Shown here: positions 13,201-63,911 of the stretch, piece by piece
Layout of the letters: every line of letters starts with the position of its first letter
Position numbering within the stretch: position 1 is the first letter of the stretch
DNA from: Sphaerolaimus hirsutus
Taxonomy: Eukaryota > Nematoda > Chromadorea > Monhysterida > Sphaerolaimidae
Assembly (NCBI GenBank): GCA_964036195.1
Contig: OZ038453.1
Location: 9,315,469-9,379,468 of the forward strand
DNA length: 64,000 nt
Reading direction: 5' to 3'
Program-made: the position numbers and the translations under genes
Notes under the pieces: model-generated
Database searches by the model: none
What the model saw: only the letters and a program-made list of their open reading frames with translations
What the model was told of the DNA's origin: nothing

Positions 13201-16200
13201 TCTCAGCATGCCGGGTATAATTAAATGTGTTCCGTGTCAACATGTTCCGTGTCCAAGTCTAGATGTGGGATGGGTTTAGATGTCGGTTAAGCATGGCCCC
13301 CCAAAACAACCACGTCACCAAGCCCACCTGCACGCTGAGCAGCATTTCCACGGCGCGGCTGTTGAGTGCCTCGACGGTGATGAGCAGGGCAGCCTGCAAC
13401 TCTCGCTGGGTGACTCTCGTGTGTTCGGCTCGCTCCACTGCCATCCATTCGATGGCACAGTCGGCCAGTTTCTTTAGAATTCTGAAATGGGGGTAGGTTA
13501 CTGTGATTGGAGTTTTATATCGCCAGAGTTATATATCTTATTTGCACACATTTGAGTTGGCCACAATGAGGAATCTGTCAACCACAGTTGACGACAATCA
13601 AAAACAATTCATTCTGGTAAACTCAAAATGTGTTCAAAACAGATTTATGAGTTGCCCAACTTTCGATGGTGTACTAGTGTGCGTGGCCGCAATAACGATA
13701 TTTAATTTTTGAAAAACTGCTGTTGGCAACTAATCGATACGATACAATAGAAAATTGATATACATATTTCCATGTCAACAATAGGTGTAAAATGTTCAAG
13801 AATAGTCCTGTAGTAATACTCGTCTAACCCTAAAAACAAAACCCACCATGAAACGCACAAGAGAACACAAAACTACAGTAACCCATCACCATACCCCAAT
13901 AAATAACCCCCACAAACTGCATGCCAACGGGCTGCGTGCTCCTGGCAGCTAGCACCATTGGCGAATGCCCGGCATTGCACGCGGCGGCGAGCAGAATCAC
14001 GGCGGCGGACTCGATCAGCAAGGACACGGCGGGCAGGTTGAGGCACACCACCGCCGTGTGCAGCGCCGTCTCGCCCGCGCGGTTCTTTTGCCGGGGGGGG
14101 GGGAGTGTTGAGAATTTGAGGAATGTGTGGTTATTTGGGAGATTTATGAATCCGCGATTTAGTTTCATTGCAAACAACAATGAGGTGTGTGATTCCATAG
14201 TTTTTCAAACAGATTTTTCAGTATAAAGAAAGAGTGCAAAATCGCATTACGACAGGCGGGAATCGACCCCGCGCATCGCGTATAGAACACGAGCACTGCG
14301 AAAACAATGCCCTTAACTATAGACACACATGGTTACAGAAAATGGTAATCAATTCACAGAGATCCCAGCAAATTCACGCAGCCCGAGGAACATCAAATCC
14401 AATGTAAAATTTAAAAGTTGAAACAACCCAAACTGCAACATCACCAACCTTCTGCTGCGCGATGGCGAGCCTCCATTTCACCGCAAAAGAAAACAGCTCA
14501 TTCACAGCTGTATTATTGCCCATTCGAATGGCCAGCTGGAGCAAGCTATCGCCATTGTGTCCAGTAGGGCTGTGGACAATTAGCTTTATATTCTCTGGGC
14601 TGAGAAGCTCTTCCAGTAAGTGCAGCAAAGCGGTCCACATCAATGGGTCACATCTGGGCAGAGAATGTAAGTAGAAAACTGATGATGATGTCTATAATTA
14701 TGTAAATGCGCCACGGTGCTGGCGCTAGTGCCAAAGCCAAAAGTGTCAAGGAGCTTTTGGCGCTTGGCGCCGAAGTCATGGCGATTTTGGTGCAAGGAAC
14801 AAAATTTCTATGGCAATGGTGCTAGGTGCTAGTCGATTTTAACATTACTAGTCTATACCCACCTAGAATCAAAAATGCATAAAGACCATGCATAAGTGCA
14901 TCAAACCCAGAATTGCAGAAACTCAATTAAATTTGAATGAAATGATATGAAATTGAATATTATTTTTTCACTCCATCCATTTGAAAAAACTCATTGCACT
15001 AAAAACGAAATTCCTGCAAACAGAAAAAAGTAGCAAACCCCAAACAAACTTGGCTTCCACAGCCCAACTTAAGCAGTCCACTAAAAACTGTCTCGGTTTC
15101 TCATCTGCACAAATCAGCCCATATTTAATTTGTGCTGTGGTAATTAGCCACTTCACAAGGCTTGTACTGCCAGTGTGCATCGCGGTGCATAGGAGGCTGT
15201 CCGATGTGTCACTGCCCTCCATTGCCTGCAGGGGTTTGCAAATTTGTGAGGGGTATTCAAGGGAAGCAATGGTGTATTCATGTATTATTCTATCGCAGCT
15301 CTGCCTATTCTGTGACACCGTGCCAAAGATGATTAAAAACAGGGGATAGAAAAAGTTTCACGTAGATTCTTACGTATACCGTATTTCCTCAAATTACCCC
15401 CCCCCTAATTGAGTGTAAATGGAACGTCAATGACAAAAGCTGCAGTTCATGACCCATGCAATGCATAACACACGTTAAAAACAATGATTGTGTTATTTTA
15501 GAACATGGTTTATACCATCTACATACTTATATAAGGCTGTAGACTTTTATCTATGGTGGTTTTTGTCGCATTTTTCTACGTCTGCGTACATTTTTAGTAT
15601 TGGGAGTTAAAAAAATTTCTGGCGAAAAAATAAACCCCCTCGAATTACCCCCCCCCCCTCAAAATTCTCACTCTGAAAAAATAGTGGGCAATAAAAAAAA
15701 GAAATACCCGGTCCTGAGCGCAATAAATAGCAAAATAACAAGCGAATTGTACTGAAAATTTCAATAACCATTTTTTTAAATGCTGATGCTCACGTTTAAA
15801 AAAAATATGGTTCGTTTCAAGGACGTAGCCCGAGGGGGGCCAAAAAAAAGTGGCGGCCGACGAATGGCACTAGCGCCAACAATGACATGGTGCGGCCATA
15901 CGGGATTTTTCGGGTAGCATTTTAGAAGGGGGGGGGGGGTCCGCCATTGTTTGAGCACTCACAGCTCAGCAACGGCGAGAACTCGGTCGTAAAGTAAACC
16001 CGGCCGTAAAGTAAATCCGGCCGTAATGCATAGTTGTACAAACGTAATTACGTTTACTCGATAAATACGTATACTCGAGTGCTGCGTAAATACGTTTGTT
16101 TCCTCCCGAAAAAATACCGGTACTCACTTACTCGCGTACTTTGAAAGTACGCGGGTACAGAAAACGTGATTGAGAACATTTTTTGAGTGCATAAAAAGCA

Positions 16201-19200
16201 AAAAAATCACTCACACGAATATAAACGGCTGAAAAAATAGCGTAAAATAACATTGGAAATTATAGAATTCGCGATGGGTAGGGATAGCGACGACTCTCGC
16301 TTTCACCTATACTCAATTTTACGTTTTCCTAGGTACAAAACTAAAGTAGCACCCTCTACTTTACGGCCGGGTTTACTTTACGGCCGGACCATCCCCCTCA
16401 GCAACCACTAGGCGAAAATTGATGAAAATTAAACATAATGAGGTTTCCATGTCGGGGCTATATTGAAAATCGAATTCGACTTTCTACGACCCCCCTGACT
16501 CGAGATAGGGGGGGGGGGTTTGAAAAAAGTAAATTTTTCGGGGGGTTTACATTGTCGCCCCCAACGAACAAATTGGCATACGGAATTTAGACATCACTCA
16601 CTTGCAGGTGTTCTCGATCATTTTAAGAGTTTAACGATCAAAATCGGTCAAGAAATGGCAGAGTTATAACGCTGCAAAGTTAACATGTTGGGGGCGACAG
16701 TGAAAACCCCCCCAAAAATTTACTTTTTTTCAGACCCCCCCCCCCCCCCGCATCTCGGGTCAGGGGGGTCGTAGAAAGTCGAATTCGATTTTCAATACAG
16801 CCCCGACATGAAACCACATTATGTAAAATTTTCAGCAATTTTCACAGTGGTTGCTGAGCTGTGAATGCTCAAACAATGGCGGACCCCCCCCCCCCCCCCC
16901 AAAAAAAAAAAAATGTTACCCCAAAAATCCCCTATGAGTGCGGCGCCTATCAATGGCGTCAGCGGCATGACTTGATTCCGCCATTACAGGGACGAAATTT
17001 TAGGGGGGTGCCCCCACCCCTCGTTCACCGGGTCCTGTAAACCCCCCCCCCCCTCAAAACTACTGGTTACGTCCGCGGTTCGTTTTGAAAAGGTAAAAAA
17101 ATTTAAAAAGCCAAAAAACCAACCGCCAAAAAGTCCACTCTGCACACACTTTCCAACAACTCACGCACATCCTGGCCTTTCCACCAATTCTCATTGCCAG
17201 TCCCATTTTCCGCGTGATCAGCGATTGAGGCCATCAGCTGGTCAACGGGCTGTGCCAGCAAATTGGGCTGGTTTGTGATGGTGGCTTGGGGGAACACTTG
17301 GCTCACTGTTGTCTGTATTTTGTTGGGGTGTTACTTTTGGATACTGGCAGAAAAAAGGGACATTTTGTTATAAATAGGTTGTTTGTAGTTTTTGGCTTTT
17401 CTCACAGTAGTTTCCTATCAAAATGAAAAAATGTGGAAAAACTCACAAATTACTTTGAGCGCATTTGAGTTTACCGCGGATGACGAACAGTTGACGGAGA
17501 AAAAAAAATTACTCATTCCAGTAAAGTCAAGTACATTCACAGTTGGTGTACAATTTTACCAAATTTTTCTGAAAAATCGGATACAAACGTACCGACATGT
17601 TCACAAGCATCCATGCACCGTATTACCTCGAAATATCCCCAGGGGGTTTATTATTTCGCCAGCAAAATTTGAGGGGGGGATAGTTCGAGGGGGGTTTATT
17701 CGAGGGGGGTCTATTATTTCGCTAGAAATTTTCAGAAATTCCCCATACTCAGACGTAGAAAAATCAAACAATTACATAGATGTATATGTGTTTCTAGGCA
17801 TATATGACTGTATCTACACATAAACCATTCCCTAACATCACTCAATCATCATTTTTTACGTGTGTTCCGCATTGTACAGATGACAAACTGCGGTATTTGT
17901 CATGTACGTTCTCTTCACACACAATTTTAGGGGGGTATTTCGGGGGGGGGGGGGGTGGTTTATTATTTCCTCAGCCGAATTTTAGGGGGGTATTTCGAGG
18001 GGGGGAGATAATTCAAGGGGGGGATAATTCGAGGTAATACGGTATTCATGTAAGGGTTTTAACCAAGGTTTTAAATAAAAAACGTTTTTTCTAAAGCATC
18101 AAAACAGATTTTTAATAAAAAATACACTTTCAAAAAACTCCCCCATCATAACTCGTAAAATATAACAAAAAACTTATTTCAAAATTTACATTTCTCAAAT
18201 TTTGCCACAAAAACAGTCACACCCTCCAGAAGTTTCGGTTTTCTCACCGTGCTGCGATACACCGGGCAGGCACACTGAGCGGGAATGGTGACAGGCAAAC
18301 CAGCGCCAGTCAAACCAGAAACAGGGGGGTCAGTGACCAATTGCACGGCTATGCGGTCGTAGGGCGGCTCGGTGCCCACCACGGCGCACAGCTTGTTGCG
18401 CACCTGCATGGATAATGATTTTGAGGGGATTTGAATGCGTGTTTGTAGCGTACCGGGCAATTTCGTTGACGAAATTACCGTATTTCTTCTAATAGAACGG
18501 TATACCTCCAATACAATGGCACCTACGATAGAACGGCAGGTTGTGGCTCTTTTTGCACTCATGAAAACAATAGAACTGCATCATCCAATAGAACGACACC
18601 TCCAATAGAACGGCAGGTAGAAATTACGTTGGACGGGTGCCAGAACACATACAAACATAGAAATGTATGACAAGAACATTCAAGGCATTCAAATTTTGAT
18701 TTTTAGTTACAAATTGATGCTCTGGCATTAAAATGTTGCTCAAGTTTCATAAAAATATAACTGTGAACAGGTGAAAAGTGTGTGAAGAAAATGGTGTAAA
18801 AAGAACAGCAGCCTCCAATAGAACGCCACCTCCAATAGAACGGCACTCTTATATTAGAAGAAATATGGTAGTGTGTTTTTCCAGAGTGCCCACGTGAAAG
18901 CAAATTATAGCGCTCATGACTAGGGTTGTAAAAACAACAACAACAATTGAAAACTGCATGATTTTTAAAAAGTTTCTTGAATTTTTTAAATTTAATAGGC
19001 TTTTAAAAATGAGGAATTAAGCTAGAATAAATATGCATTCAGCGGCACATAATGTATTGTTATGTTTACTGTGGACATAATGACCCTGCTATTGTGTTAC
19101 AAGCTGTGATTCCTGCCAAAAATCCATTTTTATGTCGATCCGCTTGTATTTATATCCTTTCACGGAATTTTCGTGACTTGACCCGGACATAAATGCTACT

Positions 19201-22200
19201 TGAACGCTTCAACGCTTATACTTGATTGTCAATCTATTGAAAAACCAAGAAATGCCGGATGTTTTTAAAATTTCGAGTTCTAAAAATCAAAACACCAACA
19301 AAAATGTACACAATTTCTGGATGCCGACTACTAGAAAAACAACTCGCAAATAACCCACTGCATTCATGTTGTTCTGCAACGACGCGTGCTTGAATCTTGA
19401 GCACTGGCTGGCCGCTTTTGCAATGAACACGAAATCACCAGCCATGTGTGGCCGCAGGGTGGCGTCAAAGGGCGCAACCATTTCTGTCGGCACCCGAATG
19501 AAGCATCTGCGTGATTTTTCTACGATATGCTTTACATACAAATTCTGCGTGGTTTGGATATCCTTTACATACAAATTTGTAATATTTTCACAATATTTTA
19601 GGCTCTACATAGGCTCAGGCTTAGGTCTGAGTGTTTTGGTGATGCGCTCATTCTCTGGAAGGAGGTGCGAGTGTCACTTGGACCAAAGCCAATTAGTAAA
19701 CGAAAACTGAGAAATTGTTTGCTGCATCTGCTAAATACTAAGAAGTCTTCTGCTGTGTGTGATGAGATCGGACCAAAACCGAACTGCATCGAAAATTACA
19801 ATATTTAGAGGTTTTTGACTGAAAGGCATATTGACGTGAAATACGTGATGGTGATCAAGTTGACGCCATTTCCCTTCAAAATTCTAAAAAATAACAAATA
19901 AAATTTCTCTCCAAATAAAGTGAATACAGCTTTTTCTCTCCAAATAAAGTGAATACAGAGTAAGAACAATGTCAACTGAAAATGTCAACTCAAATTGGTT
20001 CGAAATAATAGTATTCTGGTTCCGTCAAGCAGAGTTGTGCAAATACTGGTATTTTTGGAAAACGTAAACGTAAACGTAAATACCTTTTCCAAATCAAAAG
20101 TATAAATACTAAAACGTAAGGTATTTTAAAAATACCAAGGAATACGTAAAAAAAACGTAAACGTAAAAATAGATGTGCTTTGGAAATACCATTATTTTCA
20201 CCTTTAGATAGGTCAATCGCTCCATCTGCACCACTTTCCGTTGTAAGTGTGGCAAAATCCAACTATATGCTGGTGATTCTGGGGGAGTCCCAGACCCTGT
20301 AAAATGCGTTGTAAAATGTCAAATGGCATGCAAAGTGTCTAAAGTCATGCAAAATGCTCTGGAAGGTGGCAAATCTTTGCCATTTTGCTGGGCATTTTCC
20401 ACGACTTTTGACACTTTGCATGACGTTTGACATTTTACAGGGCTTTTTACATGGTCTGGGAATGGCACCAGAGCTTGCACTCGACCTGCCAGTTTCAAAA
20501 CATTTTAAAAATGTTACTCACAGTTGTTGCAAGTGGCGTCGTCAGTATTCATCAAAAAATTTTTATAGACGCAAGGCTCCACAAACAAACAAAAAGGTTT
20601 CTGTGTTCAGCGTTTGAACACATTTATGAATATGTATGTACCCAGTATTCCATGTGTAAGTGCAAGCGTGCAGTCATGTTACGTTTATGCGATAACATAA
20701 GAATATTGTTGGCTGCAGGTGGTGCGGCCCATTTGAAAATGTGCACGTGTGAACGATTACAAGTTTTTTTACGTTTTCCCACGTACCCGGGTATTTTGGT
20801 CAGGAAAACGTAACAAAACGTAATGGTATTTTTGAAAAGCGTAAACGTAAACGTAAGTATAAATACCCGAATAACCGGGTATTTCGGGTAAACGTAAATA
20901 CGTTTTTCCAACTCTGCCGTCAAGTAGGAACGCCCACACAACCGCGCGCAAGGTATAAGTGCAGTTTATATCGAACCCTATATAGAAATGTAGGGTTCGG
21001 GCGAAAACGCGTATGAACGCGTTAAGGTAAAGTTGTTTGTTAAACATTAAAAAGTTGTTCTTTACGTTCTTTTCGAAATTGCCGAATTTAGCAAAAAAAA
21101 GAAGAAATGAAAAATCGCTCAAAATATGCTCCATTGGCCCACTGCACACTGCAAAGTTGCACGGGCGGTTCGGACGTTTTCTATTTCCGCCCGGGCGGAA
21201 TTGTAAAGTCGGTTCGGACGATTTTATTTACGACCAATCTAAAAAACTACTGAAATCTGGGTCGGTTCGGACGATTTTTAATTCCCCCCTGTTTTTCAAT
21301 CCGCCTTTGAATTCCGACCATGCAAAAAACGTCCGCACCGCCCGTGCCACTTTGCAGTGTACGGTGGGCCAATTGGATCGCTGAGCGAACTTGGGGACAG
21401 TATCTAAGGATAGATAGATTGCCTCATCGGAGACCCCAAGACGGCATAATGCCAACAAATACACACACTACCATCAAACCCTCAAAACAACACTCTAAAA
21501 AAGTAAAAAATTCACAAAGCCAACCGCATCAAATGGCCACTCATGGTGCAATATGAACACCCGGCCACGTCGCTGGTGAGGCCGGAGCTGGCGCCGGGCA
21601 CGCACAGGTAGTGCAGCACCTCCACCCACGCGGACCCGAGTGAAGGGGGCGACCCGTCCAGCAGACACGCGGTGCGCGACTCAGCGTACTGAAATTAGGA
21701 TGGCGGTTTTTGGACCAGTTTTATTTCGAGAGTGGGGGATTATTCGGGAGAAATGGTGTTTAATGGCGGCGCACACACTAGTTGACACAAAGCGCAAAGG
21801 CGAAGTGAAACGGCAAGTGCATTGGCAAAAGCGAAGTAAAAAAATAGCTTTCGTTATTTCACTTGCCATTTCACTTCACCTAGGTATTATATGCGCTTTT
21901 ACTTCGCCTTTGCCAATTCACTTTTTGCGGAACTAGCACCAGGTCTGTGTCAACTCAGATTTCGGCTTCACGTGTCGCAGATAGTGATGTTAAAGGCACC
22001 GGGAAAAATGGCACCGCACCGCACCGGCACCTTTGCCAACGCATGCAAAGGCCACCTGGCACCCTGGGGCACCGGCCAGAAAATGGCACCGCACCGCACC
22101 GGCACCGGTGCCTTTTGGAAAAAATGGCACCGGCACCGAAGGGCACCGGCTGGTTGCCGGTGCTAGCACCGAAAGGCACCGCACCGGGCTGGAATTTCTG

Positions 22201-23864
22201 AAGTAAATATCGGGCAGTTTCTCAGTGGTCTCACCTTTGGAAGTGCATATTTCCATGAATTTTCAACCGATTTTGATGGTTGAGCACTTAAAATGATCAG
22301 AATGATGTGGCAATCACTTTTATGAAGCAATTACAATTATTACAAATGAAAGATAAAATATTTAATTAACTGCAATGTCCATTGCCACTTTTGTCTACTG
22401 ATCGGAGTCGTTGCTGTACAGATAATGGAACTATCTCTGTCGTAAACTGACAACAAATTTTGAACAAACAAGTAAGATAAATATAAAATATAAAAATGAT
22501 TCAAAATTCAACAAAATTTTAGATTCGCTCATCAGATCACGTATCGGGTATAACGGATTTCACAGTAGGTATTTATATTTATTTAATGGGAGGTTTACAA
22601 AATAGGCAAAAACGGTTGGGTAAATATATCGCTGTTTTTTGTAATATGAATAAGCACATACTATGGACAAAATTGCACAGCACATGAAGCTTTGGCCGGT
22701 GCCTTTCCCGGTGCCTTTTACTTTGGCCCTGGTGCTAGCACCTTTGGCACCGGCAAAAAAATGGCACCGCACCGCACCGGCACCGGTGCAATTCTGAAAA
22801 AAATGGCACCGGCACCAGCATGGCACCACTGAAGATTGCAATGGCACAGCACCAGCACCGGTGCTGGTGCCTATCGGTGCCCAGCACCGGGGCACCGGTG
22901 CCTTTACATCACTAGTCGCAGAGCGATCTACCAATGCACTAGTTTAATATTTATTTGCGTAATTTGAAATTGCTGTGCGCCACGTGAACATAAATCTGAG
23001 TTGACACAGACCAGTTGACACAAATGTGTCAACTAGTGTGCGGGGCGCAAATAAAGCGAAGCCCAACATGGTTTAACGGCGTGTAAATCGGCCAAAGTAT
23101 TTACACAGCGAAATGGGGACACGATTCAGGTGGTGTGGATGCCTAAAATGCTACCCACCCCACGGACAGATCTGCCCACACGCAATTCAATTCTGTCAAA
23201 GTTCAATTCCAAATTAAGATCCGTATCACTGCACACGTGAATAGATACCGTATTTGCTCGAATAATTCCCCTGGGTAATTATTTCGTCAGGCTTTGTTGA
23301 GGGGGAACTATTCGAGGTGGAATTATTCAAGGAAGAAATTATCAAGAATATTTCTATCAAGTCATTTAATGAAATGTGCTTTATTCACAAAATAACATGC
23401 CATTTCTGTTCAAATTCGACAAATCCACTTGATCATAAGCTGTAAGGGGAAAATTCATTCATGTAATCATTCATGGGAGGGAATTATTTCACCTCAGTAG
23501 TCTAACAGGGGGGAATTATTTGAGGGTAGGAATTATTGAGCAAATATAGTAGTTAGAGTCCTGGGGGGTAGATGATAATCAGAGCTTTCGCGGGTAACCA
23601 CGCAAACCATAACCAAAATACTTCCAAATCAATTTTTTTTGGCATTTTTGAAAAGAGCCACCCACTCAGAGCCAGCATCTTCAGAACGAAAAACCCAAAA
23701 TCCGAAAAGGCGGCGCCAAACACAAAACAAACCATTAACAGCCTGGCGGCCAACTCCTTACAATCCTTCTCCACAACCTGATCATAAAATTCCAAAACTT
23801 TTTGGCGCAGCTCGATTTTTGTCCACCCAGTGGGGATTCGGAATTCCGCCACTCTCGACCCCAT
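7293..23864 (-). CDS. Ankyrin-like/RING protein, copy A (16 exons, intact)
   Basis: Exons 1-16: 23864-23733, 21688-21525, 19506-19359, 18403-18248, 17312-17124, 15225-15050, 14653-14449, 14084-13918, 13481-13328, 12235-12092, 11861-11706, 11252-11205, 10914-10749, 8640-8487, 8252-8135, 7451-7293. They sum to 2436 nt with every phase matching, giving 811 residues. Exon borders were set by GT-AG sites shared with copy B. The start is an ATG conserved in both copies. Ankyrin-like units occur in exons 6-8 (for example GETALHTAVVCLNLPAVSLL) and weakly in exon 11. A C3HC4 RING is split over exons 15/16: C751-C754, C766, H768, C772-C775, C792-C795, which suggests an E3 ubiquitin ligase. Residues 1-260 match no family I know. 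No close named relative recognised. Confidence 0.85.
8714..10735. mobile_element. Inverted-repeat element with ~20-bp terminal minisatellite
   Basis: Lies in intron 13 of copy A. The left end has about five copies of CTCAGCGCAAGTAAA/CTCAGGGCAAGTAAA (8716-8803). The right end has the inverse, TTACTTGCGCTGGGAGCTTA (10693-10712). It encloses the fold-back element at 9548-10656. A clear target duplication was not found, so the limits are approximate. Confidence 0.5.
9548..10656. mobile_element. 1.1-kb fold-back MITE, absent from copy B
   Basis: Near-continuous palindrome centred near 10090. The left arm reads GGCCCCCACTGATTTCTTAC, the right arm GTAAGAAATCAAGCGGGGGC, and inner blocks such as TTTACAATAATTTATAGGGG recur inverted. 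The corresponding interval of copy B (about 28690-29050) lacks it, so it postdates the duplication or was lost there. Confidence 0.75.
12236..13327. repeat. Intron 9 of copy A: degenerate transposon pieces
   Basis: No gene seen. Contains a fragment of the CAAGGACG hAT-like family (GTATCCAGGGGGGCGGGG, 12412-12429), a degenerate GGTATGGTA-repeat element (~12565-12760), TTCTATTGGAGG repeats (12810-12855) related to 18477-18870, and C-runs. Confidence 0.5.
14221..14320 (-). mobile_element. tRNA-derived SINE, shared by both copies
   Basis: Minus-strand GGGTCGATTCCCGCC resembles a Pol III B box. It is preceded by GTGTTCTATACG and followed by a tail ending CTCTTTCTTTAT. It is the same family as 25133-25290. 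The orthologous insertion in copy B (40160-40240 plus 40872-40890) shows it predates the duplication; there a later element splits it. Confidence 0.65.
15818..17077. mobile_element. hAT-like fold-back element, TSD GTTCGTTT
   Basis: Termini CAAGGACGTAGCC and GGTTACGTCCGCG, flanked by GTTCGTTT (15810-15817 and 17078-17085). Arms carry long G and C runs in inverse order. It lies in intron 5 of copy A and contains another nested element at 15974-16396. Confidence 0.8.
15974..16396. mobile_element. Nested element with GGCCGTAAAGTAAACCC arms, TSD CTCAGCAA
   Basis: GGTCGTAAAGTAAACCCGGC at the left is inverted at the right as GCCGGGTTTACTTTACGGCC. CTCAGCAA(C) flanks it at 15965-15973 and 16397-16405. 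Removing it rejoins the arm of the 15818-17077 element. Confidence 0.75.
17617..18043. mobile_element. ACCGTATTT-family MITE, G-rich
   Basis: Ends ACCGTATTACCTCGAAATAT and ATAATTCGAGGTAATACGGT, with GGGGGTTTATTCGAG repeats inside. It lies in intron 4 of copy A. The family recurs at 23247, 48917, 53121 and 54112. Confidence 0.75.
18477..18870. mobile_element. MITE with ACCGTATTTCTTCTAATAG termini
   Basis: Left end ACCGTATTTCTTCTAATAGA, right end TATTAGAAGAAATATGGTA. CTCCAATAGAACGGCA repeats fill both sides. The left end is 74 bp upstream of the exon 4 acceptor of copy A. A decayed relative lies near 28290-28372. Confidence 0.7.
20030..20916. mobile_element. hAT-like MITE with GTAAAC-array arms, TSD CCGTCAAG
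   Basis: Termini CAGAGTTG and CAACTCTG, with CCGTCAAG at 20022-20029 and 20917-20924. The arms are tandem AACGTAAACGTAAA and its complement. Copy B has the uninterrupted site TTCCGTTAACTAGGAA near 46620, so the insertion followed the duplication. Encloses the TGTAAA-family sequence at 20282-20469. Confidence 0.9.
20282..20469. mobile_element. TGTAAAATGTCAAA-family MITE
   Basis: Left GGGGAGTCCCAGACCCTGTA, right ATGGTCTGGGAATGGCACC. The interior repeats ATGTCAAATGGCATGCAAAG. Same family as 44903-45177 and 60247-60465, and similar to the repeat inside the LINE ORF. Confidence 0.65.
21769..23046. mobile_element. CACACTAGTTGACAC inverted-repeat element
   Basis: Ends GCGCACACACTAGTTGACAC and GTGTCAACTAGTGTGCG. 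It lies in intron 1 of copy A and is interrupted by the hAT-like element at 21982-22914. A short relative is at 60975-61187. Target duplication not clear. Confidence 0.65.
21982..22914. mobile_element. hAT-like MITE with GGCACC-array arms, TSD GTCGCAGA
   Basis: Termini TAGTGATGTTAAAGGCACC and GGTGCCTTTACATCACTA. GTCGCAGA flanks both sides (21974-21981 and 22915-22922). Arms are dense GCACCGGCACC and GGCACCGCACCG repeats; the middle is unique AT-rich sequence. Nested inside 21769-23046. Confidence 0.9.
23247..23550. mobile_element. ACCGTATTT-family MITE
   Basis: Starts ACCGTATTTGCTCGAATAAT and ends near AATTATTGAGCAAATATAGT. It lies in intron 1 of copy A, close to exon 1. Confidence 0.65.
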
Positions 23865-24813: not shown

Positions 24814-25014
24814 TAGTGATGGAAAAAGCGCCAGACTTTTGGCACCAAGCACCAGACTTTTGGCGCCAAGCGCCAAAAGCGTCACAGCGCTTTTCAGCAC
24901 CACGGCGCCAAGCGCCAATAGCGCCACAGGATAATAGCGCCAAGCGCCAAAAGTGCCACGGCGCTTTTTTGCTTTGGCGCTAGCGCCAGGCGCCATGGCG
25001 CTTTTCCATCACTA
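24814..25014. mobile_element. hAT-like MITE with GGCGCTTGGCGCC arms
   Basis: Termini TAGTGATGGAAAAAGCGCC and GGCGCTTTTCCATCACTA. Flanks ATCATGTC and GTCATGTC match at 7 of 8 positions. Arms are GCGCCAAGCGCCAAAAG repeats. Confidence 0.8.
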
Positions 25015-25015
25015 G

Positions 25016-40871: not shown

Positions 40872-40892
40872 CGCGAAAACAATGCCCATAAC

Positions 40893-42200: not shown

Positions 42201-42208
42201 GTCATAAC

Positions 42209-52200: not shown

Positions 52201-54782
52201 CTGTTCAAATGTGTGTTCAGAATAATTGTTAAGGAATTCCCGTATTTGCTCGGTCCACTGGAATAGAATTGGCTCGCCTGTATTAAAAAAAATCAGTGGT
52301 GACTTGCTACTAGGGTTGGCCGATGTTTTTTTTTAAACGTTTTTTTTTAAAAAAAAACGTTTTTTTTTTTTAAAAAACATGACGTCCGAAATGTTTTTTT
52401 TTAAAAAAAAACATCGGCCGAAATTTTTAGTACTAAGCACTAGGTATTTTGCAAAATTTTTGCGCGCAAGCGCGCAATTTCACACACAAATTGACATTGG
52501 TGGTTGTTTTCATTGGTTTTGTTGCATTTTTAGTATCAAAACATCCATTTCTATGTGCTACCATGGGTGAATAAGCCGACATATGTTGCTGTAATATATA
52601 ATATTGAGATAATGTGCTTCCATGTACCTCCACAGTGTGTAACTTCACTCCCAAAGTAACAACCTCCTTTTATAACCTTGTTTGATCACCATTCCGTGCC
52701 AAACTTTACCTGAAGTCACGAACATTCGACTATAAGGCGATATACGAACGATATGTCAACGAAAAATGGATATTTTTGACACAAATCACCACTTATAATG
52801 CTATCCCATGGCTCCACAGCCATTATATGGTCATATTTAACATCACAGAGTATTGCCAGTGTCTGATATACCTATATATGTTGACACTAGGTCATATCTG
52901 GGAGCTTTTAAAAAAAAACGTTTTTTTTAAAAAAAAAAACGTTTTTTTTTAAAAAAAAACGTTTTTTTTTATAAAAAAACATCGAGTTAAAAAAAAACGT
53001 TTTTTTTCCAACCCTACTTGCTACACTCAAGTATGACACGCAGTAGGTTTGCCAATTTCAGATTTCAAATTTCCAGATACAGGTATGGTATTTAGGATGC
53101 AGAAAATTTGGTTGGTAGATACCGTATTTGCTTGAATGATTCCCCTTGGGGACTTTTTCGACGGGAACTATTCAAGCATTATTCAAGGGGGAATGATCTG
53201 TTTAGATGAAATTTTCAAGCATATTTCATTTATTTATCAACTCGTTTCAAGAAATATGCTTTATTAACAGCATAACATGCCATTTTTGCTCAAATTATAC
53301 ACAACAAATTTATCATATGCCTAGACGGGAGAATTATTCTAGGGGGGGGATTATTTTCCTTACTCCTCTAACATGGGGAATGATTCAAGAGGGGTGTATT
53401 CAAGAGGGGGAATTATTCAAGAGGGGTGTATTCAAGAGGGGGAATTATTCAAGAGGGGTGTATTCAAGAGGGGGAATTATTCAAGGGGGATCATTCAAGC
53501 AAATACGGCACATCAATTGACAGGGTGCAACATATTGAGTGATCATCAACCAAAATAGTGATAAAACTCGTAACCCAAAACCAACCGACATGCTGCGAAT
53601 AGACTTCATTCAATTGAGCCTCCAGAAATGATTTGTTTCTGCGGTGCATCCACGGCGCCGACAACTCAAAAGTGGCGCAGTTCACGGCCGGGTAACCCAG
53701 TGGCAGGTGGCAACTGAAAATGGGGGAAAAATGTGATTTAGTTGACACTGGAAGAAATCTAGGGGCATAAGAAACCGGCCCAAATATTTCTACCAAAGTT
53801 ACTAGAACAGAAAAACGTTTCTGATCGAAACGACCAACTTCAAATTACGATATTGGCCCTACACACACTTGTTTTCACCGTGACTGATGTGAAAACTGAA
53901 ATGGCGACATGGCGACATCCAGCCTACTCATTTTGTATGCTTTATGTGTTTTAGTTTTCAAATTTTCAAAGTTTAACTATCATTTATTTAAACTCAAATT
54001 TAAATAAAATCATATCATTCAACCGTGATTTTTAATTTGCATTTGAAAAAATTTCACTTTTCACACGAAGTCACGGTGAAAACTAGTGTGTGTAGGCACA
54101 TTATTCCAATTACCGTATTTCCTCGAAATACCTCCATGGGGTTGATCATTTCGCCAGCATTTTTTGAGGTGGGTTAATTCGAGGGGGGCTTATTCAAGGG
54201 GGTTTATTATTCAGTCAGAAAAATCCGTGAAGAATTGTAGTAAAGAATAAGCCACAACATGCCCAAAATTGGTAAATGAGACGAAACAGGATATCTAGGC
54301 ATTTGTAGGGATATATCTACACAAACACTTTGTAGTGTTTAAATATATTTATGTGTGGCTGCAATGCAATTTGGCAGCAAAAATACATCATTTAAATTGC
54401 ATACATGATTCGATACGGGGTTTATTTTTTTCCTCGGGTCGCTCAGGCATGGGGGTATTTCGAGGGGAGGGTCAATTCAATGGGGATAATTCGAGGAAAC
54501 GCGGCATCAATCACATCATATTTGACAGTGTGCGTAAGACAGCAACAAATGAGAATTCCGTGAAAAACAAAGGCACAAGCAACTACCACTTTCAAAAATC
54601 ACACCAGAAAATCCTGGCAACGTGCCAACAAACCAAATCAGAACAGCCCTGCCTGGATCGTCATCGCAACTGAGGTTCAGCGTCAAGGAACAGGCGCCAC
54701 TGTCGGAAATCCTGTCGGAAACGGTGCAACAGTCGGAAAAAATTGCACGCACGGCATCCATTTCGTCCTCGCGCGACACCAT
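49212..54782 (-). CDS. IMPACT: IMPACT homologue (RWD + UPF0029), 5 exons
   Basis: Exons: 54782-54634, 53713-53586, 52277-51943, 50790-50504, 49365-49212. They total 1053 nt, in phase throughout, giving 350 residues. The RWD domain (~1-105) has REDEMDAVRAIF, LPLGYPAV, ELSAPW and GEPILFQW. A polar Asn/Asp/Glu-rich linker spans ~108-175. The UPF0029 domain (~180-312) has DRKSTFQAH, KIARATHNIYAYR, DCEDDGEHGAG, VVVTRWYGGIHLGPDRF and HINNVAREIL. The tail is basic. In known family members IMPACT binds GCN1 and dampens GCN2 activation in amino-acid shortage. Start: the only ATG just before the RWD, matching family length. Introns hold hAT-like, Harbinger-like and ACCGTATTT MITEs. Exon 4 is GC-richer than exon 3. 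Confidence 0.96.
49399..50043. mobile_element. MITE of the AAGTCGACAAGTCC family
   Basis: Ends TGAGGCGTCTACTTCTAAAA and TTTTAGAAGTAGAGGCCTTA. AAGTCGACAAGTCC or its complement recurs at least seven times. It starts about 33 bp from the exon 5 acceptor, in intron 4 of IMPACT. GAGAGAGCCAAATTGGAC is shared inverted with 40893-41524. Confidence 0.75.
50904..51597. mobile_element. hAT-like MITE with AAAACG/TTTTAAA arms, TSD GTCCCACA
   Basis: Termini TAGGGTTGGCCGATG and TTCCAACCCTA. GTCCCACA at 50896-50903 and 51598-51605. Lies in IMPACT intron 3; same family as 42209 and 52311. Confidence 0.92.
51606..51722. repeat. TGTAAAATGTCAAACATCA repeats
   Basis: Tandem CCCGTGTAAAATGTCAAACA units, related to the MITE family at 44903 and the LINE repeat. 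IMPACT intron 3, directly after the hAT-like MITE. Confidence 0.6.
52311..53016. mobile_element. hAT-like MITE with AAAACG/TTTTAAA arms, TSD CTTGCTAC
   Basis: Termini TAGGGTTGGCCGATG and TTCCAACCCTA; CTTGCTAC at 52303-52310 and 53017-53024. Body closely matches 50904-51597. In IMPACT intron 2, 33 bp from the exon 3 acceptor. Confidence 0.92.
53121..53508. mobile_element. ACCGTATTT-family MITE with 32-bp minisatellite
   Basis: Ends ACCGTATTTGCTTGAATGAT and ATCATTCAAGCAAATACGG. Three tandem 32-bp units (AAGAGGGGTGTATTC then AAGAGGGGGAATTATTC) lie at about 53388-53483. IMPACT intron 2. Confidence 0.8.
53855..54099. mobile_element. Harbinger-like MITE, TSD ATT
   Basis: Ends GGCCCTACACACACTTGTTT and AAACTAGTGTGTGTAGGCAC. 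TTTTCACCGTGA and its complement lie just inside. ATT at 53852-53854 and 54100-54102. IMPACT intron 1. Confidence 0.85.
54112..54504. mobile_element. ACCGTATTT-family MITE
   Basis: Starts ACCGTATTTCCTCGAAATAC and ends GATAATTCGAGGAAACGCGG. IMPACT intron 1, next to the Harbinger-like MITE. Confidence 0.75.
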
Positions 54783-58300: not shown

Positions 58301-61300
58301 ATTGAATTTGTAATTATACAGTACCGTATTCAATTTGGCAGTGTTTTGCAGCTCGACAAATCACGTTTTCTCAGGCGAAGTATAACTTTCAAACACTATG
58401 GGTTGGTGGGCTCTCCGAAAAATATTTTTGTCTGGCATAATAATTATTAGGGTTGGCACTTGATTTTTTAAACTGATTTTTTTATTTATCTGATTTAAAA
58501 AAATCAAAGGGTGGAAACTGGTTTTTATTATAAAAAATCAAAAGGCAAAATTTCTGGTAGACTTGCACTAGGTATTTTGCAATTTTTTTTTTGCGTGCAA
58601 GCACACAATTTCTCATACACACTACCATTGGTAGTGTTTTCATGGGTTTTGGGGCATTTTTAGTGTAAAAGCTTCAATTTATTCATGTTACCGAGCAATC
58701 ATAAGCCGTGCTATGCTAGTATAATATGCAGCCAACGTGCTCCCACATACTCCTAGAGCAAGGACGTATCCAGGGGGGGCGGGGGGGGGGGGCTGCAGCT
58801 AGGGTTCAAACGGGATTGACTTTTCGGGATCGGGATCGGGATCGGGATTCACTTTTTGAGATTTCGGGATCGGGATCGGGATCGGGATTGGGGTTTCGGG
58901 ATCGGGATCGGGATCGGGATTGGTTTTTTGAGATTTCGGGATCGGGATCGGGATCGGGATTGGCCGGGATTGGGGTCACGGGATCGGGATCGGGATTGGG
59001 ATAGGCATTTTTCCGGGATCGGGATTGGGTTCTAGGGATAGAGATTTTGGCCATTTTTCTGGCATTCACAGTTGTTCATAAAGGTCTCAAAACACTGTTG
59101 GATGCCAGAAAAGTGGCATAAAATTGACGCTGGGGGATTGCATCCACTTTTTTGCATGCAAAAACGTCATTATTTCACTTTTTATAATTTCCACTAATTT
59201 TTCCGGGATCGGGATCCCGGACTTGGGAGTTTCTCGGGATCGGGATCGGGATTTGAAAACTTTCGGGATCGGGATCGGGATCGGGATTGGTATTTTTGAG
59301 ATTTCGGGATCGGGATCGGGATCGGGATTGGGGTTTCGGGATCGGGATCGGGATCGGGACTGGTAAATCCCGGAATTTCACGGGATCCGGGATCGGGATC
59401 GGGATCCCGTTTGAACCCTAGCTGCAGCCCCCCCCCCTTCCCGGGGTGAGACCCAAAAAGTCCCGGAAAATTTCAACTTTTCCTATATATTTTCCGATGT
59501 TTCTTAAAAATTTTGCGCGCAAGCGCGCAATTTCGTCCCCATGCATTGTATTTTCAGCGGATCGGCCCCTGTAAACCAATATACTCGGAAATAAAAACCA
59601 TTTTTGCTATTTTCGCTGTATATGTATGCATTTTACATACATTTAAAGCGGTTCCTGGCGCTGGCGCCACCGCCAATAGCGCCAAGGAATGGTGCCCTTG
59701 TATGGCGCTAGCGCCAAAACGCTTTTCCGTCCCTATATAGGGAAAAATTTTAGGGGGGGGGCTGAGCCCCCCCCGTTCGCCGGCCCCCGTAAACAAGCAG
59801 CCCCCCCCCCCGCTCAAAAATCCTGGATACGTCCCTGTCCTAGAGTGTGTAACATCACTGTCAATGTATTAGGCTTCTCTTACAACCATATTTAAGCACT
59901 ATTCCATGCTGAACTTCACTTGAAGTCACAAACATTCGACAAAAGGCAATATATGTAATAAGTCGACATAAAAATGGATATTTTTGAAAGAAATCACCGC
60001 TTATAATGCTATCCCATGACTCCACAGTCATAATATGACCACAATAGACATAACAATACATTGTCTGACACTTAACATATACAAAAAAATTTTCTGTTAA
60101 TCCCCATTTTGAACGATTTAAAAAAAAATCTGATTTAAATTTTAAAAAAAATCAATTTAAAAAAATTGATTGTGAAAAATCAAGGCGTTTAAAAAAAATT
60201 GATTTTTTCCAACCCTAGGCATAATCTCTCACTTTACACCACCACATGGGGGCAGTCCCAGTCCCTGTAAAGGGTAAATTAAAGTGTCAAATGCCATGTA
60301 AAATGTAAAGTAAACTGGCAATTGTCATGACACATGTAAAGTAAAGTGTCAATTATAATGCAAAGTTCAGTAATGAAATCTTTTATATATATATATATTT
60401 TTGATTAACATTTTACATGGCATTTGACACTTTACTTTACACTTTAGAGGCTTGGGACTGCCCCATGCACACCTTTTTCACAGATCTGCTTATCCTTTAC
60501 CAATCATTTATTTCCAGGAGGATTATAATGAGGCCCTCAAACGTCTGTGCGATTATGTAGTGCGTGCGTACAAATTGAATGCTGGCATTCGCTTTGAAGT
60601 TTTCGTGCACAAAGTCGACGGATTAACTGATGATCAGAAAATGGAAATTCAGAGAGATATTTATCAGAGAGCTAATGATGATTTAGTTGATTTGGGGTAT
60701 GATAATATTCACTTGAGGTTTGTTGTTGTTACGACGGGAAAGTTACCGCACCGATCCGGATAATTACTGGTGAATGTTTGAGGTCAATTAAAGTGTTTCA
60801 TTACGAAGGTGCATAGATGTGAAACCCAAAGAATTTGATCACCCAAACGTTGCGCCATCGAACTAAAAAATACAATTTTGAAAATTCAAATTTTGTGCAC
60901 TTTTGGAGAAGTCTTCAATTACCATCAATTATGAAAGTCTTACTGGCGTTCACCGCACCAATATTGGCAGACCGCACACTAGTTGACACACGTAGTTGAC
61001 ACACGAGTTTGTGTCAACTCAGATTTCGGCTTCGCGTGTCGCAGAGCGATCTCCAAATGCATATGCGGCAATTTTGAACGATAAAAATTACGGCAAGTGC
61101 ATTGGAAGATCGCTGTGCGACACGTGAAGCTGAAATCTGAGTTGACACAGACAAGTTGACAGGCACACATGTGTCAACTAGTGTGTGAACCGTAGGGTTC
61201 AAACGATATCACTTTTCGATATCGATATTCGATATTTGATATTTTTTCAAAATTTTCGATATCGATATTCGATATTCGATATTTTTTCAAAATTTTCGAT

Positions 61301-63746
61301 ATCGATATTCGATACGATATGGACCCTCGATATCGATATTCGATATTCGATACTAAAAAATGGTCGATATTCGATATCGATATTTCGATATTTTCGATAT
61401 TCGATATTTAGCTTTTGGTATAGCAAGGCATATTTCAAGCAGCATATTGTATCTTCATATGGTTGCAAACATGGTAGATTATCTCTTTACTGAAAAGTAC
61501 AATTGATTTTAACAAGGTTTACAATGGTCAGAATGATAAAATCGAAGAAAAAACATGACAAATCAAATTGTATCAGACAAACAAAAATTGGTAGATATTA
61601 CAATTCATACTTATAACCCAATTGTTTAAGGGCATGTTGCAAAAAAGCAGCATATCAGCATTTTCTGGCTTCAAATTTGAGCTAGGTAGTTCAGTAGGTA
61701 TGTGGAGTAAGCACTCCAACAAAGATGACATTAAATACTTTGCTTTTACTCATCAACTTATATACTATAAGCAAATCAAATTAATCACAAATATCTCAAA
61801 ACAAAAATAATAACTTAATTAAGGACATTATACAGGTTCGATATATCGAAAATATGGTCGATATTCGATATCGATATTCAATATTTTTTCAAAATTTTCG
61901 ATATCGATGTTCGATATTCGATATTTTTTCAAAATTTTCGATATCGATATTCGATATTCGATATTAAAAAATGGTCGATATCCGATATTCGATATTCGAT
62001 ACGATATATCGTTTGAACCCTAGTGAACCGCCATAAGGTACCTTTTCCCCGAAAACACGTTTTATTACATCACTTCCTCCCCATTTTCCAGCTTTCACCT
62101 GACATCAATATATGACCACTCTATATTTGAAGCTTTTTCAAAAGTAGTTCAAAAACTTATACCACAACTGCCTACTTTGGAGCAGCTATTGGACATTTTC
62201 AATCAGGTGCGTTCACTTTTAATTTTGGGTGTTGTTTTTGTTGATTCTAGAGTTATTTTGGTGAGGAGGTGAGGAGCTCCTTGTTTAAGTTGCGAATTGG
62301 AGAAGTTGTATTTAAAAACTGGATTTTAAAAATTGTTTGGTTTTTGTCACCCGAACTAGGAATTATCTTTTGACTCTATTCAAAAATAATTCCACCTTAT
62401 TTCCCAGAATTCTCATGTGGAAAAGTCATTTCTATTTGATGTATCCAGCAAAATTTACGTGGCCACCGATGCCACCCCAGTCAGTATGGAAGTTTATGAA
62501 TTGTGCTGCGATATGATCGATGTAGCTGTCGATATCGCCTGTATTTATGGTTTGAAGGACGATGGCCAGCCCGGTTTGTTTACGTGGGACATACCTACCA
62601 GAGTTGCGAAAGCGTATTTACGTTGACTTTTTATTTTACGCTTTCCCATGTATTTTAAAAATGCATTACGTTTAGTATTAATACTCCAGATAAAGGTTTT
62701 TACGTTTACGTTTACGCTTTCCAAAAATACCAGTATTGTAATCTGGTACCAACTTCACTGAGAATTGGGGTCATGCGATTGGGTGTGAACAGCAAGTAGA
62801 AATAGCGCTACAACTAGGGTGTCAACTTTCCGTTTTCCGTTTTCCGTTTCCGCTTTCCGCAGGCAAATTTTTTTCCGTTTCCGTTTCCGTTTTCCGGCTG
62901 CTAAATTTTTTTTCCGTTTCCGTTTTTCCGGCTCATTTTCCGTTTTCCGGCTAAAATTTCAGTTTTTCCGCCTTTTTTCCGTTTTCCGGCTCAATTGTCT
63001 GTTGTTCCAACTTTATTCCATTTTCTGACTCAATTCACTGTTTTCTGTTTCAGCCAAACTGGTAAACATGCATGCATGTTCTCAATTATGTGAATTGTTT
63101 CTATTTCTAGCAAGATTTCTGCAAATTTTTTGATTTCTGGATAAATTTCTGCAATTTTTTTTCCATTTCCGGCAAAATTTCAGCAAATTTTTTCCGTTTC
63201 CGGCATAATTTCAGCAAATTTTTCCGTTTCCGTTTCCGTTTTCCGGCCTTTCATTTTTCCGTTTTCCGTTTTCCGGCAGGTGCAAATTTTTTTCCGTTTC
63301 CGTTTCCGTTTTCCGGCAAGTGTGAATTTTTTTCCGTTTCCGTTTCCGTTTTCCGCCAAAAAGTTTTTGTTGACACCCTAGCTACAACCCAGTGCGCATG
63401 TAAACACGATGCGCATGTTTCCCGGTGCCCATCTAGAGGCTCTACATGCGCACCGAGTCTACATGGACACCGGGTTAGCGCTACATGGGCACCGAGTTTA
63501 TATGCGCACGAAGTCCTTGCCCTAGAAACATGTTCAATATTTTTTCAAATTTTAGTTTTTTTGAGTTCACCAGCTCAATATCTGCACTACAACGCCGCAG
63601 AAAACGACAGCGCGGCGAACATGCACGGCGACGGCGTGGCCAACCACGAGCAGCTCGTGTCCAGCGTGGGGCTGGGCGGGTCGCTCGCCGCCACCATCAA
63701 ACTGCACAATCGGGTCGACGACGCCGCGCCCATGAATGGAGCGCAG
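55397..63746 (+). CDS. RRAGC: RagC/RagD-type GTPase, 8 exons, 3' end beyond window
   Basis: Exons: 55397-55414, 55850-55980, 57469-57563, 58052-58173, 60518-60717, 62092-62206, 62408-62573, 63574-63746. All phases agree, giving 340 residues so far. P-loop G47-LKRS-GKT54; the switch II motif reads EYPGQ (94-98) where RagC usually has DFPGQ; G4 is HKVDG (153-157), typical of RagC/D. Further matches: [48 protein letters not shown] and [10 protein letters not shown]. Rag C/D pairs with Rag A/B on lysosomes and recruits mTORC1 when amino acids suffice. Exon 1 is an 18-nt micro-exon with a strong donor (GCC/GTAAGT). Exon 8 is GC-rich and adds about 35-40 residues absent from human RagC before the IKL strand. 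Whether it is C or D cannot be told. Confidence 0.95.
56224..57361. mobile_element. 1.14-kb mariner-like palindrome, TSD TA
   Basis: Ends CACTCCTGTTTACCTCGATC and GATCGAGGTAAACAGGAGTG, bordered by TA. Both arms of about 540 bp match nearly base for base around a ~60-bp spacer (56762-56820). TA target and CACT... ends suggest Tc1/mariner; inference. Intron 2 of the Rag gene. No other copy in the window. Confidence 0.85.
58759..59837. mobile_element. hAT-like CAAGGACG element (middle of three nested), TSD TCCTAGAG
   Basis: Ends CAAGGACGTATCCAGGG and CCTGGATACGTCCCTG. TCCTAGAG at 58751-58758 and 59838-59845. It interrupts 58448-60217 and is itself interrupted by 58800-59420. Confidence 0.92.
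58800..59420. mobile_element. hAT-like MITE with CGGGAT arms (inner of three nested), TSD GCTGCAGC
   Basis: Termini TAGGGTTCAAACGGGAT and ATCCCGTTTGAACCCTA. GCTGCAGC at 58792-58799 and 59421-59428. Arms are nearly pure GGGATC repeats. The middle resembles 43507-43936. Confidence 0.95.
60247..60465. mobile_element. TGTAAA/TGTCAAA-family MITE
   Basis: Left TGGGGGCAGTCCCAGTCCCTG, right GGCTTGGGACTGCCCCA. Body GTAAAGTGTCAAATGCCATG repeats. Intron 4 of the Rag gene. Confidence 0.7.
60975..61187. mobile_element. Short CACACTAGTTGACAC MITE
   Basis: Ends CACACTAGTTGACAC and GTGTCAACTAGTGTGTG. GATTTCGGCTTC and CGTGTCGCAGAGCGATC are shared with the large relative at 21769-23046. Intron 5 of the Rag gene. 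Confidence 0.75.
61193..62022. mobile_element. hAT-like MITE with CGATAT arms, TSD GTGAACCG
   Basis: Termini TAGGGTTCAAACGATAT and ATATCGTTTGAACCCTA. GTGAACCG at 61185-61192 and 62023-62030. Arms are ATCGATATTCGATATT repeats; the core (~61440-61840) is unique AT-rich sequence. It landed on the edge of the MITE at 60975-61187. Confidence 0.95.
62599..62745. mobile_element. Short hAT-like GTAAAC-array MITE
   Basis: Starts CAGAGTTGCGAAAGCG; its right end complement is CAGATTACAATACTGG. CGTTTACGTTTACG repeats inside. Flanks ATACCTAC and GTACCAAC match at 6 of 8. Related to 20030-20916. Intron 7 of the Rag gene, 25 bp after exon 7. Confidence 0.7.
62815..63380. mobile_element. hAT-like MITE with TTTCCG-array arms, TSD GCTACAAC
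   Basis: Termini TAGGGTGTCAAC and GTTGACACCCTA. GCTACAAC at 62807-62814 and 63381-63388. Body is TTTTCCGTTTCCGTTTTCCG repeats. Same family as 34194-34836. Intron 7 of the Rag gene. Confidence 0.93.
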
Positions 63747-63793
63747 GTGGGCTTTTTTTGCTTTGCGTGGTTTTTTCGTTTTTGCGTTGCGAC

Positions 63794-63911
63794 TAGTGTT
63801 AGAAAAAAAAACTATTTAAAAATTTCGTTTTTTATAATTAAAATCAGATTTTTTTAAAAAGATCAGATAAAAAATCAAGTGCAAAAAAATCAATAAAAAA
63901 ACCCAGCCCTA
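63794..63911. mobile_element. 118-bp hAT-like MITE, TSD GTTGCGAC
   Basis: Ends TAGTGTTAGAAAAAAAAAC and AACCCAGCCCTA. GTTGCGAC at 63786-63793 and 63912-63919. It starts 47 bp after exon 8 of the Rag gene. Confidence 0.85.

Follow-up and report, generated by a model that had tools for sequence, protein, structure and literature searches.

Eighteen elements between positions 15818 and 63911 of a 64-kb stretch of Sphaerolaimus hirsutus DNA (contig OZ038453.1; the whole stretch is called the window here) are best read, from their sequence, as non-autonomous hAT elements that are ordinary for the superfamily and unusual in the architecture of their arms. In 14 of them, the arms are arrays of one short motif, and in 10 of these 14 the two arms resemble each other in direct more than in inverted orientation. 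We think it probable that the arms are selected arrays of putative binding sites for the BED finger of a hAT transposase. No copy was obtained outside the window, and all results therefore rest on these 64 kb.

hAT-like ends and motif-array arms

Most of the elements were recovered by a scan for duplicated 8-bp flanks with inverted tips, and 18 were written out and checked. Their flanks are identical in 16 cases and match at 7 of 8 positions in the other 2 (24814-25014, ATCATGTC/GTCATGTC, and 41981-42200, GTCATGAC/GTCATAAC). An earlier sequence-only reading of this DNA had described 18 perfect 8-bp target-site duplications (TSDs); the 18 elements exist, 16 of them with perfect duplications, and all 10 TSDs that it had named were recovered among them. 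Perfect 12-bp terminal inverted repeats (TIRs) with an identical 8-bp flank were observed five times, and TIRs with at most one mismatch and such a flank nine times, compared to none of either in 20 Markov-shuffled windows. hAT tips follow the rule YARNG, and hAT insertions prefer targets of the form nTnnnnAn. Here, 34 of 36 tips fit YARNG, in agreement with what had been said of most termini, and the TSDs carry T at position 2 in 10 of 18 and A at position 7 in 9 of 18 (11 by the earlier count), a weak preference when the two positions are pooled (19/36, p = 0.003). TSD length and tips support the assignment to hAT. The elements are 118 to 1,260 bp long, several being above the ∼500 bp usual for miniature inverted-repeat transposable elements (MITEs), and they have the features of MITEs: short, noncoding (as judged solely from a list of open reading frames [ORFs] of ≥120 amino acids, some of which overlap elements), bounded by TIRs, and present in several copies with common ends. 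Nine families with arrays and two others were tabulated, with one to four copies each; comparison of the window with itself added further copies, mostly degraded, including one at 58448-60217.

Motif arrays are absent from the elements at 15818, 37572, 45475, and 58759. In the other 14, the statement that many arms are one short motif repeated holds, each motif being concentrated in its own family and scarce elsewhere. The densities per kb in the motif's own family are 56 for CGGAAA (tip TAGGGTGTCAA), 48 for CGGGAT and 54 for CGATAT (two families with tip TAGGGTTCAAACG), 56 for GCGCCA and 34 for GCACCG (two families with tip TAGTGATG), 41 for CGGTA (tip TAGGGTGGCAG; an array that the sequence-only reading had not named), 17 for ACGTAA (tip CAGAGTTG), and 8 for AACGTT and 12.5 for AAAATCA (two families with tip TAGGGTTGG). 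Outside the listed elements, each motif occurs at 0.2 to 1.0 per kb, and the table of densities is near-diagonal, with the highest off-diagonal values being 7.4 per kb for GCGCCA in CARGGACGTA-type elements and 3.7 per kb for CGGAAA in the CGGGAT family. Of the GCGCC clusters counted as outside, some adjoin copies on the list and probably represent further sequence of that kind. The arrays previously given as GTAAAC and GGAAAC exist and are the CGTAAA and CGGAAA (or AAACGG) arrays in another register. The possibility that the arms are ordinary microsatellites, of a kind also found outside elements, is rejected for all families by the low outside densities and for AAACGG also by the contrast between motifs and spacers described below.

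Conservation, polarity, and spacing of the motifs

The TAGGGTGTCAA family consists of 34194-34836 (plus strand; TSD CATTCAGT; CGGAAA 33 times forward and 0 times reverse, in 40-bp clusters) and 62815-63380 (minus strand; TSD GCTACAAC; CGGAAA 35/0 in element orientation). At distances of 0 to 60, 60 to 120, 120 to 180, 180 to 240, and >240 bp from the nearer end, intact CGGAAA motifs number 10, 9, 11, 2, and 1 in the first copy and 10, 13, 10, 2, and 0 in the second; the CpG-decay forms TGGAAA and CAGAAA number 0, 0, 1, 7, and 7 and 0, 0, 0, 4, and 2, respectively. Within 180 bp of an end, there are 63 intact motifs (of 68 in all) and 1 decayed motif, compared to 5 and 20 beyond (Fisher 2.6e-14, which is not to be taken literally given the common ancestry of the copies). 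With intact motifs outside and CpG-decay forms inside, the array seems once to have spanned the whole element and to have survived intact mainly in the outer ∼180 bp. When the two copies are aligned, both have the CpG at 29 of 33 sites of the outer 180 bp and at 0 of 4 sites of the middle.

Divergence between these two copies is 4/191 (2.1%; 2.1 to 2.6%) in motif columns, 25/122 (20.5%) in arm spacers, and 50/206 (24.3%) in the core. Since the motif-column test conditions on an intact reference, the neutral ratio of motif to spacer divergence lies near 0.5 and not at 1, and simulations were therefore used as the baseline. The observed ratio of 0.114 was reached in 0 of 80 neutral simulations (mean, 0.50; minimum, 0.25). 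Likewise, arm divergence is 8.9% versus 25.5% under neutrality, and intact motifs number 30 and 33 in the two copies versus a neutral 12.4 (60 simulations). Because the spacers diverged like the core and the motifs did not, homogenisation, which would treat both alike, is an unlikely explanation. Of all the results, this motif-specific conservation is the strongest.

These values bear on an account by passive microsatellite dynamics, in which two tips came to surround a single tandem array that was enlarged by slippage or unequal exchange and whose middle decayed or was replaced; polarity would be a by-product, and no protein would read the motif. One continuous array is what this account predicts, and AAACGG motifs with one mismatch lying >180 bp from an end indeed share a strand almost throughout (17 forward and 0 reverse in one copy, 8 and 1 in the other). 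It is also consistent with the different motif numbers of two CGGGAT copies (14 and 43), with arms of the AAACGTTT motif that are no less variable than their core, and with a 72-bp block at 58853-58924 that recurs at 59293-59364 in direct orientation with 99% identity; as the block belongs to the left arm and recurs in the right, arms seem to exchange blocks. Passive dynamics would, however, not leave motifs conserved between diverged spacers, which youth of the copies does not explain either, and they fit poorly with the sharp onset of decay ∼180 bp from the AAACGG ends and with the left-end register that different motifs have in common (see below). We consider this account unlikely. The sister copy at 43507 is gapped at the site of the 72-bp block, which suggests block transfer between arms.

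The motif had been described as inverted at the other end of the element. Instead, 8-mers shared between the arms are more often direct than inverted in 10 of the 14 array elements (direct/inverted counts of, for example, 84/5, 86/0, 122/4, 21/0, and 19/0), and in each of these 10 the direct count is higher than in any of 100 Markov shuffles. Three elements with AAACGTTT arms are palindromic (11/17, 37/35, and 49/49), and the shortest, at 63794, is uninformative (1/1). CGATAT, which overlaps its own complement, has a strand count of 35/10 in the element at 61193. The array-free element at 15818 has inverted arms (6/34). As one AAACGG copy lies on the plus strand and the other on the minus strand, polarity is a property of the element.

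Long inverted arms of tandem repeats are the structure of the foldback elements TU of sea urchin and FB of Drosophila. The comparable elements Tetris and Galileo are assigned to Mutator and P, respectively, not to hAT. The elements described here are like Tetris in having tandem-repeat arms and 8-bp TSDs (8 to 10 bp in Tetris; PMC4079207), and they are like both in carrying tandem repeats in their ends, those of Galileo being said to hold extra sites for its transposase (THAP; as cited in PMC4079207); the arms of Tetris and Galileo are, in contrast, long and inverted, with larger repeat units. A foldback nature is contradicted by the direct arms, since all 10 array elements whose motif has a direction show more direct than inverted similarity (the lesser inverted similarity being above the shuffled maximum in 4), and the long arrays in the window that are clearly inverted are those of other repeats (26344-27352 and 39194-40882); we find it barely credible.

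Within the arrays, motifs are grouped in threes and fours, and the clusters recur every ∼36 to 43 bp (∼40 bp in three motifs). Typical steps are 7, 6, 6, and then 21 bp for AAACGG, 6, 6, 6, and then 22 bp for CGGGAT, and 6, 7, 7, and then 20 bp, or 6, 7, and then 27 bp, for CGATAT, each series summing to 40; departing gap patterns are present in every family. These three motifs make up 10 arms, of which 6 have their highest autocorrelation at 39 to 40 bp and 9 have a lag of 39 to 41 bp among the 10 best (the exception being the left arm of 43507); the corresponding values are 36 bp for CGGTA and 75 and 43 bp for GCACC. Counted from the left tip, clusters start at 25 to 26 and 65 to 66 bp in all three motifs and at 105 to 106 bp in two of them. 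In a register test of four elements, including the two mutually related AAACGG copies, the register at the left end correlates in all six pairs (gap shuffling, p = 0.0065 to 0.047, with no correction for the six comparisons made per side), and that at the right end correlates between the AAACGG copies (r = 0.66) and between CGGGAT and CGATAT (r = 0.53; both p = 0.0005).

Putative transposase-binding sites and known systems

In the reading that we favour, a hAT transposase provided in trans would bind the array motifs through its N-terminal BED zinc finger and read the tip with its catalytic part. More sites would give a MITE a greater chance of capturing a transposase multimer, and sites on one strand would keep the two ends nonequivalent, as known hAT transposases need. 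Selection for mobility would then preserve the motifs, not the spacers or the core, in the outer ∼180 to 220 bp, a pattern that one family shows. If BED specificity drifted, or if a MITE changed its transposase, the motif could be rewritten across the array, with tip and spacing persisting. The proposal of the sequence-only reading that the arms are amplified transposase-binding sites gains indirect support from the motif conservation in one family, from the intact motifs of the outer ∼180 bp, and from published binding of such motifs by hAT transposases, and the sites are called putative here.

Ac transposase is reported to bind AAACGG cooperatively (PMC3260210), Herves transposase to bind a synthetic direct array, (CGATTCAT)4 (PMC3143072), and the BED domains of Hermes to bind subterminal repeats at ends that must be asymmetric (PMC10368747); end asymmetry is also reported for Ac and Tag1 (PMC10368747, PMC3143072). 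A BED-finger protein, DREF, is reported to bind TATCGATA (PMC6179265), of which the CGATAT element has seven copies. Published end requirements are at least 200 bp per end for Ac, 200 and 150 bp for Tol2, and ∼100 bp for Tag1 (PMC10368747). In six elements, the deepest motif lies 111 to 257 bp from an end, depths of the same order as the published ∼100 to 200 bp.

The tips of the TAGGGTGTCAA family differ from what we take to be the tip of Ac. This family, and no other, resembles Ac/Ds in having AAACGG hexamers in the outer ∼180 to 200 bp, Ac needing its outer 200 bp (PMC3260210, PMC10368747); Ds is said to need three copies and to vary in content, whereas each element here has 33 to 35 intact CGGAAA motifs in one-strand clusters of ∼40 bp. 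Hermes and Herves likewise have sites for the transposase or its BED domains behind the tip, with asymmetric ends in Hermes and four direct copies of CGATTCAT in Herves (PMC10368747, PMC3143072), but these sites are few and irregular and the elements autonomous, while the arrays here are dense and periodic. Repeats 2 to 7 of the left end of Hermes are described as antisense and repeats 1 to 5 of the right end as sense (PMC10368747); if both ends are read from the tip inward, a direction we take from the numbering, the Hermes repeats would lie on one strand, as in these arms. In Kat1, a domesticated hAT element of Kluyveromyces, a hexamer occurs six times between the two TIRs, with a polarity that differs between TIR-L and TIR-R (PMC4763223), unlike the arrays here, which keep one strand. 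The Mar elements of Drosophila are also hAT MITEs (PMC3517528). A review of Tol2 describes three subterminal repeats of ∼30 bp near one TIR and adds nothing on polarity (PMC8151067); a paper on coral MITEs concerns piggyBac-like elements and has no bearing on hAT-like arms (PMC2872659).

Several points weigh against this reading. Strong conservation of motifs over spacers comes from one family (AAACGG) with two copies. In the CGGGAT family, the ratio is 0.26 versus a neutral 0.51 and was reached by 5 of 80 simulations, which is suggestive; differences in motifs versus spacers number 8/125 versus 33/281 (p = 0.11) in one direction and 0/84 versus 41/322 in the other. The AAACGTTT arms, whose variation equals or exceeds that of the core, give no conservation signal: between the elements at 50904 and 52311, identity is 0.93, 0.95, 0.83, and 0.98 in arm windows and 0.92 to 1.00 in the core, and between those at 50904 and 42209 it is 0.72 to 0.85 in the arms and 0.81 to 0.98 in the core. 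The inverted 8-mer count is also above the shuffled maximum in the elements at 20030, 21982, 24814, and 41981, GCGCC elements are weakly polarised (10/6 and 9/6), and right-end register showed nothing in the four pairs that cross tip groups. hAT elements are mobilised by a DDE transposase with a BED finger and a hAT dimerisation domain; a crude regular expression for the dimerisation motif gave three matches in the six frames of the window, none convincing by eye, and no transposase was found there. Mutation of the inner putative sites of Hermes is reported to have cut activity little (PMC10368747), and the two ends of Ac and of Tol2 are said to differ in their binding motifs (PMC3143072), as those of the elements described here do not.

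A CpG excess in the arms raises the question of host proteins. The observed/expected ratio of CpG is 1.2 to 5.7 in 13 of 17 arm segments tested, compared to 0.9 window-wide, and the motifs could be bound not by the transposase but by host proteins, such as CpG-reading factors or BED-finger proteins like DREF, BEAF, or ZBED, that make chromatin accessible or help mobilisation. The CGATAT element holds seven of the eight copies of TATCGATA in the window, a sequence that the BED-finger protein DREF is reported to bind (PMC6179265). One common host factor would not lead us to expect a separate motif for each family, CpG is hardly or not at all in excess in the four GCACC and GCGCC segments (0.6 to 1.1), and the arm depths resemble published transposase end requirements (PMC10368747), all of which makes this explanation very improbable.

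Subterminal hAT sites have so far been known from a handful of elements, mostly as few irregular copies; here, several families have dense, polarised, periodic arrays at one locus, and one of them bears a signature of motif-specific selection in DNA that seems to be noncoding. The literature searched, which left out most subscription papers and Repbase, gave us no account of hAT MITEs with periodic arrays on one strand, and we do not claim that such an account is absent from print. If the sites are as they seem, BED-finger specificities could be read directly from MITE arms, the joint change of recognition in transposases and their parasites would become testable by pairing arm motifs with the BED domains of one genome, and the uniform polarity would bear on why hAT ends must differ.

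Scans of viral contigs for relatives outside the window returned 3 stretches in one scan, 64 in another, and none in three more, and one scan of genome contigs returned none. Around the 64 viral-contig matches, the exact second tip TTTGAACCCTA is absent within 3 kb, and CGGGAT or CGATAT occurs at most once in 400 bases. One of the 3 stretches has a short CGGAAA-rich run and, over 8.8 kb, 22 forward and 3 reverse CGGAAA motifs, with no plus-strand TAGGG, CAGGG, CAGAG, or TAGTG tip within ∼0.5 kb of the run.

The motif had also been said to go with the terminus. This holds loosely, the motif being family-specific; a strict one-to-one pairing is rejected, since three tips each carry two motifs: TAGGGTTCAAACG has CGGGAT or CGATAT, TAGTGATG has GCACC or GCGCC, and TAGGGTTGG has AACGTT or AATCAA. 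The TAGGGTTCAAACG elements 58800-59420 (plus strand; TSD GCTGCAGC; CGGGAT 43 forward and 3 reverse, in 40-bp clusters) and 61193-62022 (plus strand; TSD GTGAACCG; CGATAT arms, in 40-bp clusters) have a 13-bp tip and the register at both ends in common. Over the first 50 bp they show 15 differences, 9 of which are G to A or G to T, as in the change between the motifs; over the last 45 bp, where the alignment is less clean, 7 of 18 are of this type. Similarly, 58448-60217 (plus strand), which is split by 58759-59837, carries the TAGGGTTGG tip, and its core matches that of the element at 52311 at 74% identity, but its arm motif is AAAATCAA/TTGATTTT where the latter has AAACGTTT. We tentatively suggest a switching of the recognition code, a possibility to which we give rather less than even weight: the tip and (where comparable) register, ∼40-bp clusters, and one-strand polarity would be kept and the motif rewritten in concert, as between CGGGAT and CGATAT, between AACGTT and AATCAA with a homologous core, and possibly between GCACC and GCGCC. 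If this is true, recognition of the tip and of the BED site would evolve as separate modules, and the array would be recoded as a whole so as to follow, or to capture, a transposase with a new specificity.

Further copies and surroundings

The other TAGGGTTCAAACG copies belong to the CGGGAT family: 43507-43936 (plus strand; TSD AGTGCATG; CGGGAT 14/1) has shorter arms, and 50171-50483 (minus strand) is truncated, its right end not found. Tip TAGGGTTGG and AAACGTTT arms are found on the plus strand at 42209-42865 (TSD GTCATAAC; palindromic arms, the right one degraded), 50904-51597 (TSD GTCCCACA; 94% identical to the next), and 52311-53016 (TSD CTTGCTAC). The small element 63794-63911 (no strand assigned; TSD GTTGCGAC) has tips TAGTG/TAGGG and AAAATCA-type motifs.

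GCACC(G) arms (30 forward and 10 reverse) characterise the TAGTGATG element 21982-22914 (plus strand; TSD GTCGCAGA). GCGCC motifs run along the whole length of the TAGTGATGG element 24814-25014 (plus strand; 10 forward and 6 reverse; TSD 7/8) and occur in the TAGTGATGG element 41981-42200 (plus strand; 9 forward and 6 reverse). The latter abuts 42209-42865, an element of a different family whose 8-bp duplication coincides exactly with the right-hand duplication of its neighbour, such that GTCATAAC is both the right flank of one and the left TSD of the other. The TAGTGATG/GCGCC family also has a partial copy at 36350-36544 and a degraded one at 14695-14850 (boundaries by eye), both on the minus strand.

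The CAGAGTTG element 20030-20916 (plus strand; TSD CCGTCAAG) has CGTAAA arms mostly on one strand (CGTAA 13 forward and 2 reverse), and a degraded 147-bp copy of its family lies at 62599-62745 (minus strand; boundaries by eye; flanks matching at 6 of 8 positions by eye). Motif versus spacer differences in this family are 3/37 versus 13/75 and 0/29 versus 16/83, taken on 62613-62757, ∼12 to 14 bp off the eye-read boundaries. The core of 20030-20916 (20280-20461) matches, at 78 to 85%, 102-bp tandem repeats at 5225-6234, inside the long retrotransposon ORF 1493-6904. The TAGGGTGGCAG element 39545-39820 (plus strand; TSD ACCTTCAC) has a one-strand CGGTA array (GGTA 21/0) with a 36-bp period, and a degraded copy of the CGGTA family lies at 12569-12750 (plus strand; boundaries by eye). 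Around 39545-39820, GTGCCCAAGTAAAC arrays form several inverted blocks (39194-40882), a region for which, as a whole, no TIR with TSD was found.

Long G or C runs replace motif arrays in the CARGGACGTA-type elements, which lie at 15818-17077 (plus strand; TSD GTTCGTTT; arms similar when inverted), 37572-38024 (plus strand; TSD AATGTGAA), 58759-59837 (plus strand; TSD TCCTAGAG), and 47246-47683 (identified by similarity only). A three-level nest of hAT-like elements is formed by 58800-59420 inside 58759-59837 inside 58448-60217, the outermost being flanked by GGCATAAT at both ends, with six added bases (AATTAT) on the left. The element 45475-45991 (plus strand; TSD CTCTCAGA) has CAGCGG/CAGGGG tips and is without a family motif array.

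The window looks eukaryotic, with a non-long-terminal-repeat (non-LTR) retrotransposon and apparent exons. Pfam, applied to five ORFs, identified the non-LTR retrotransposon (RVT_1 and endonuclease) and, below the curated cut-off, ankyrin repeats; Rfam found one tRNA in the window. A large inverted-repeat element at 26344-27352 has 212-bp arms that are 87% identical, 122-bp ends that are 89% identical, and truly inverted TTGGCAC...GTCCAA arrays; its inner boundary (26368-27329) is flanked by TTAA, and it is possibly piggyBac-like, yet the similarity extends outside the TTAA. The regions 12084-15262 and 37397-43284 appear to form a ∼25- to 28-kb segmental duplication, with pieces 85 to 94% identical and ankyrin-like ORFs, and an exon-like piece of ∼62 bp recurs at four places in the window.

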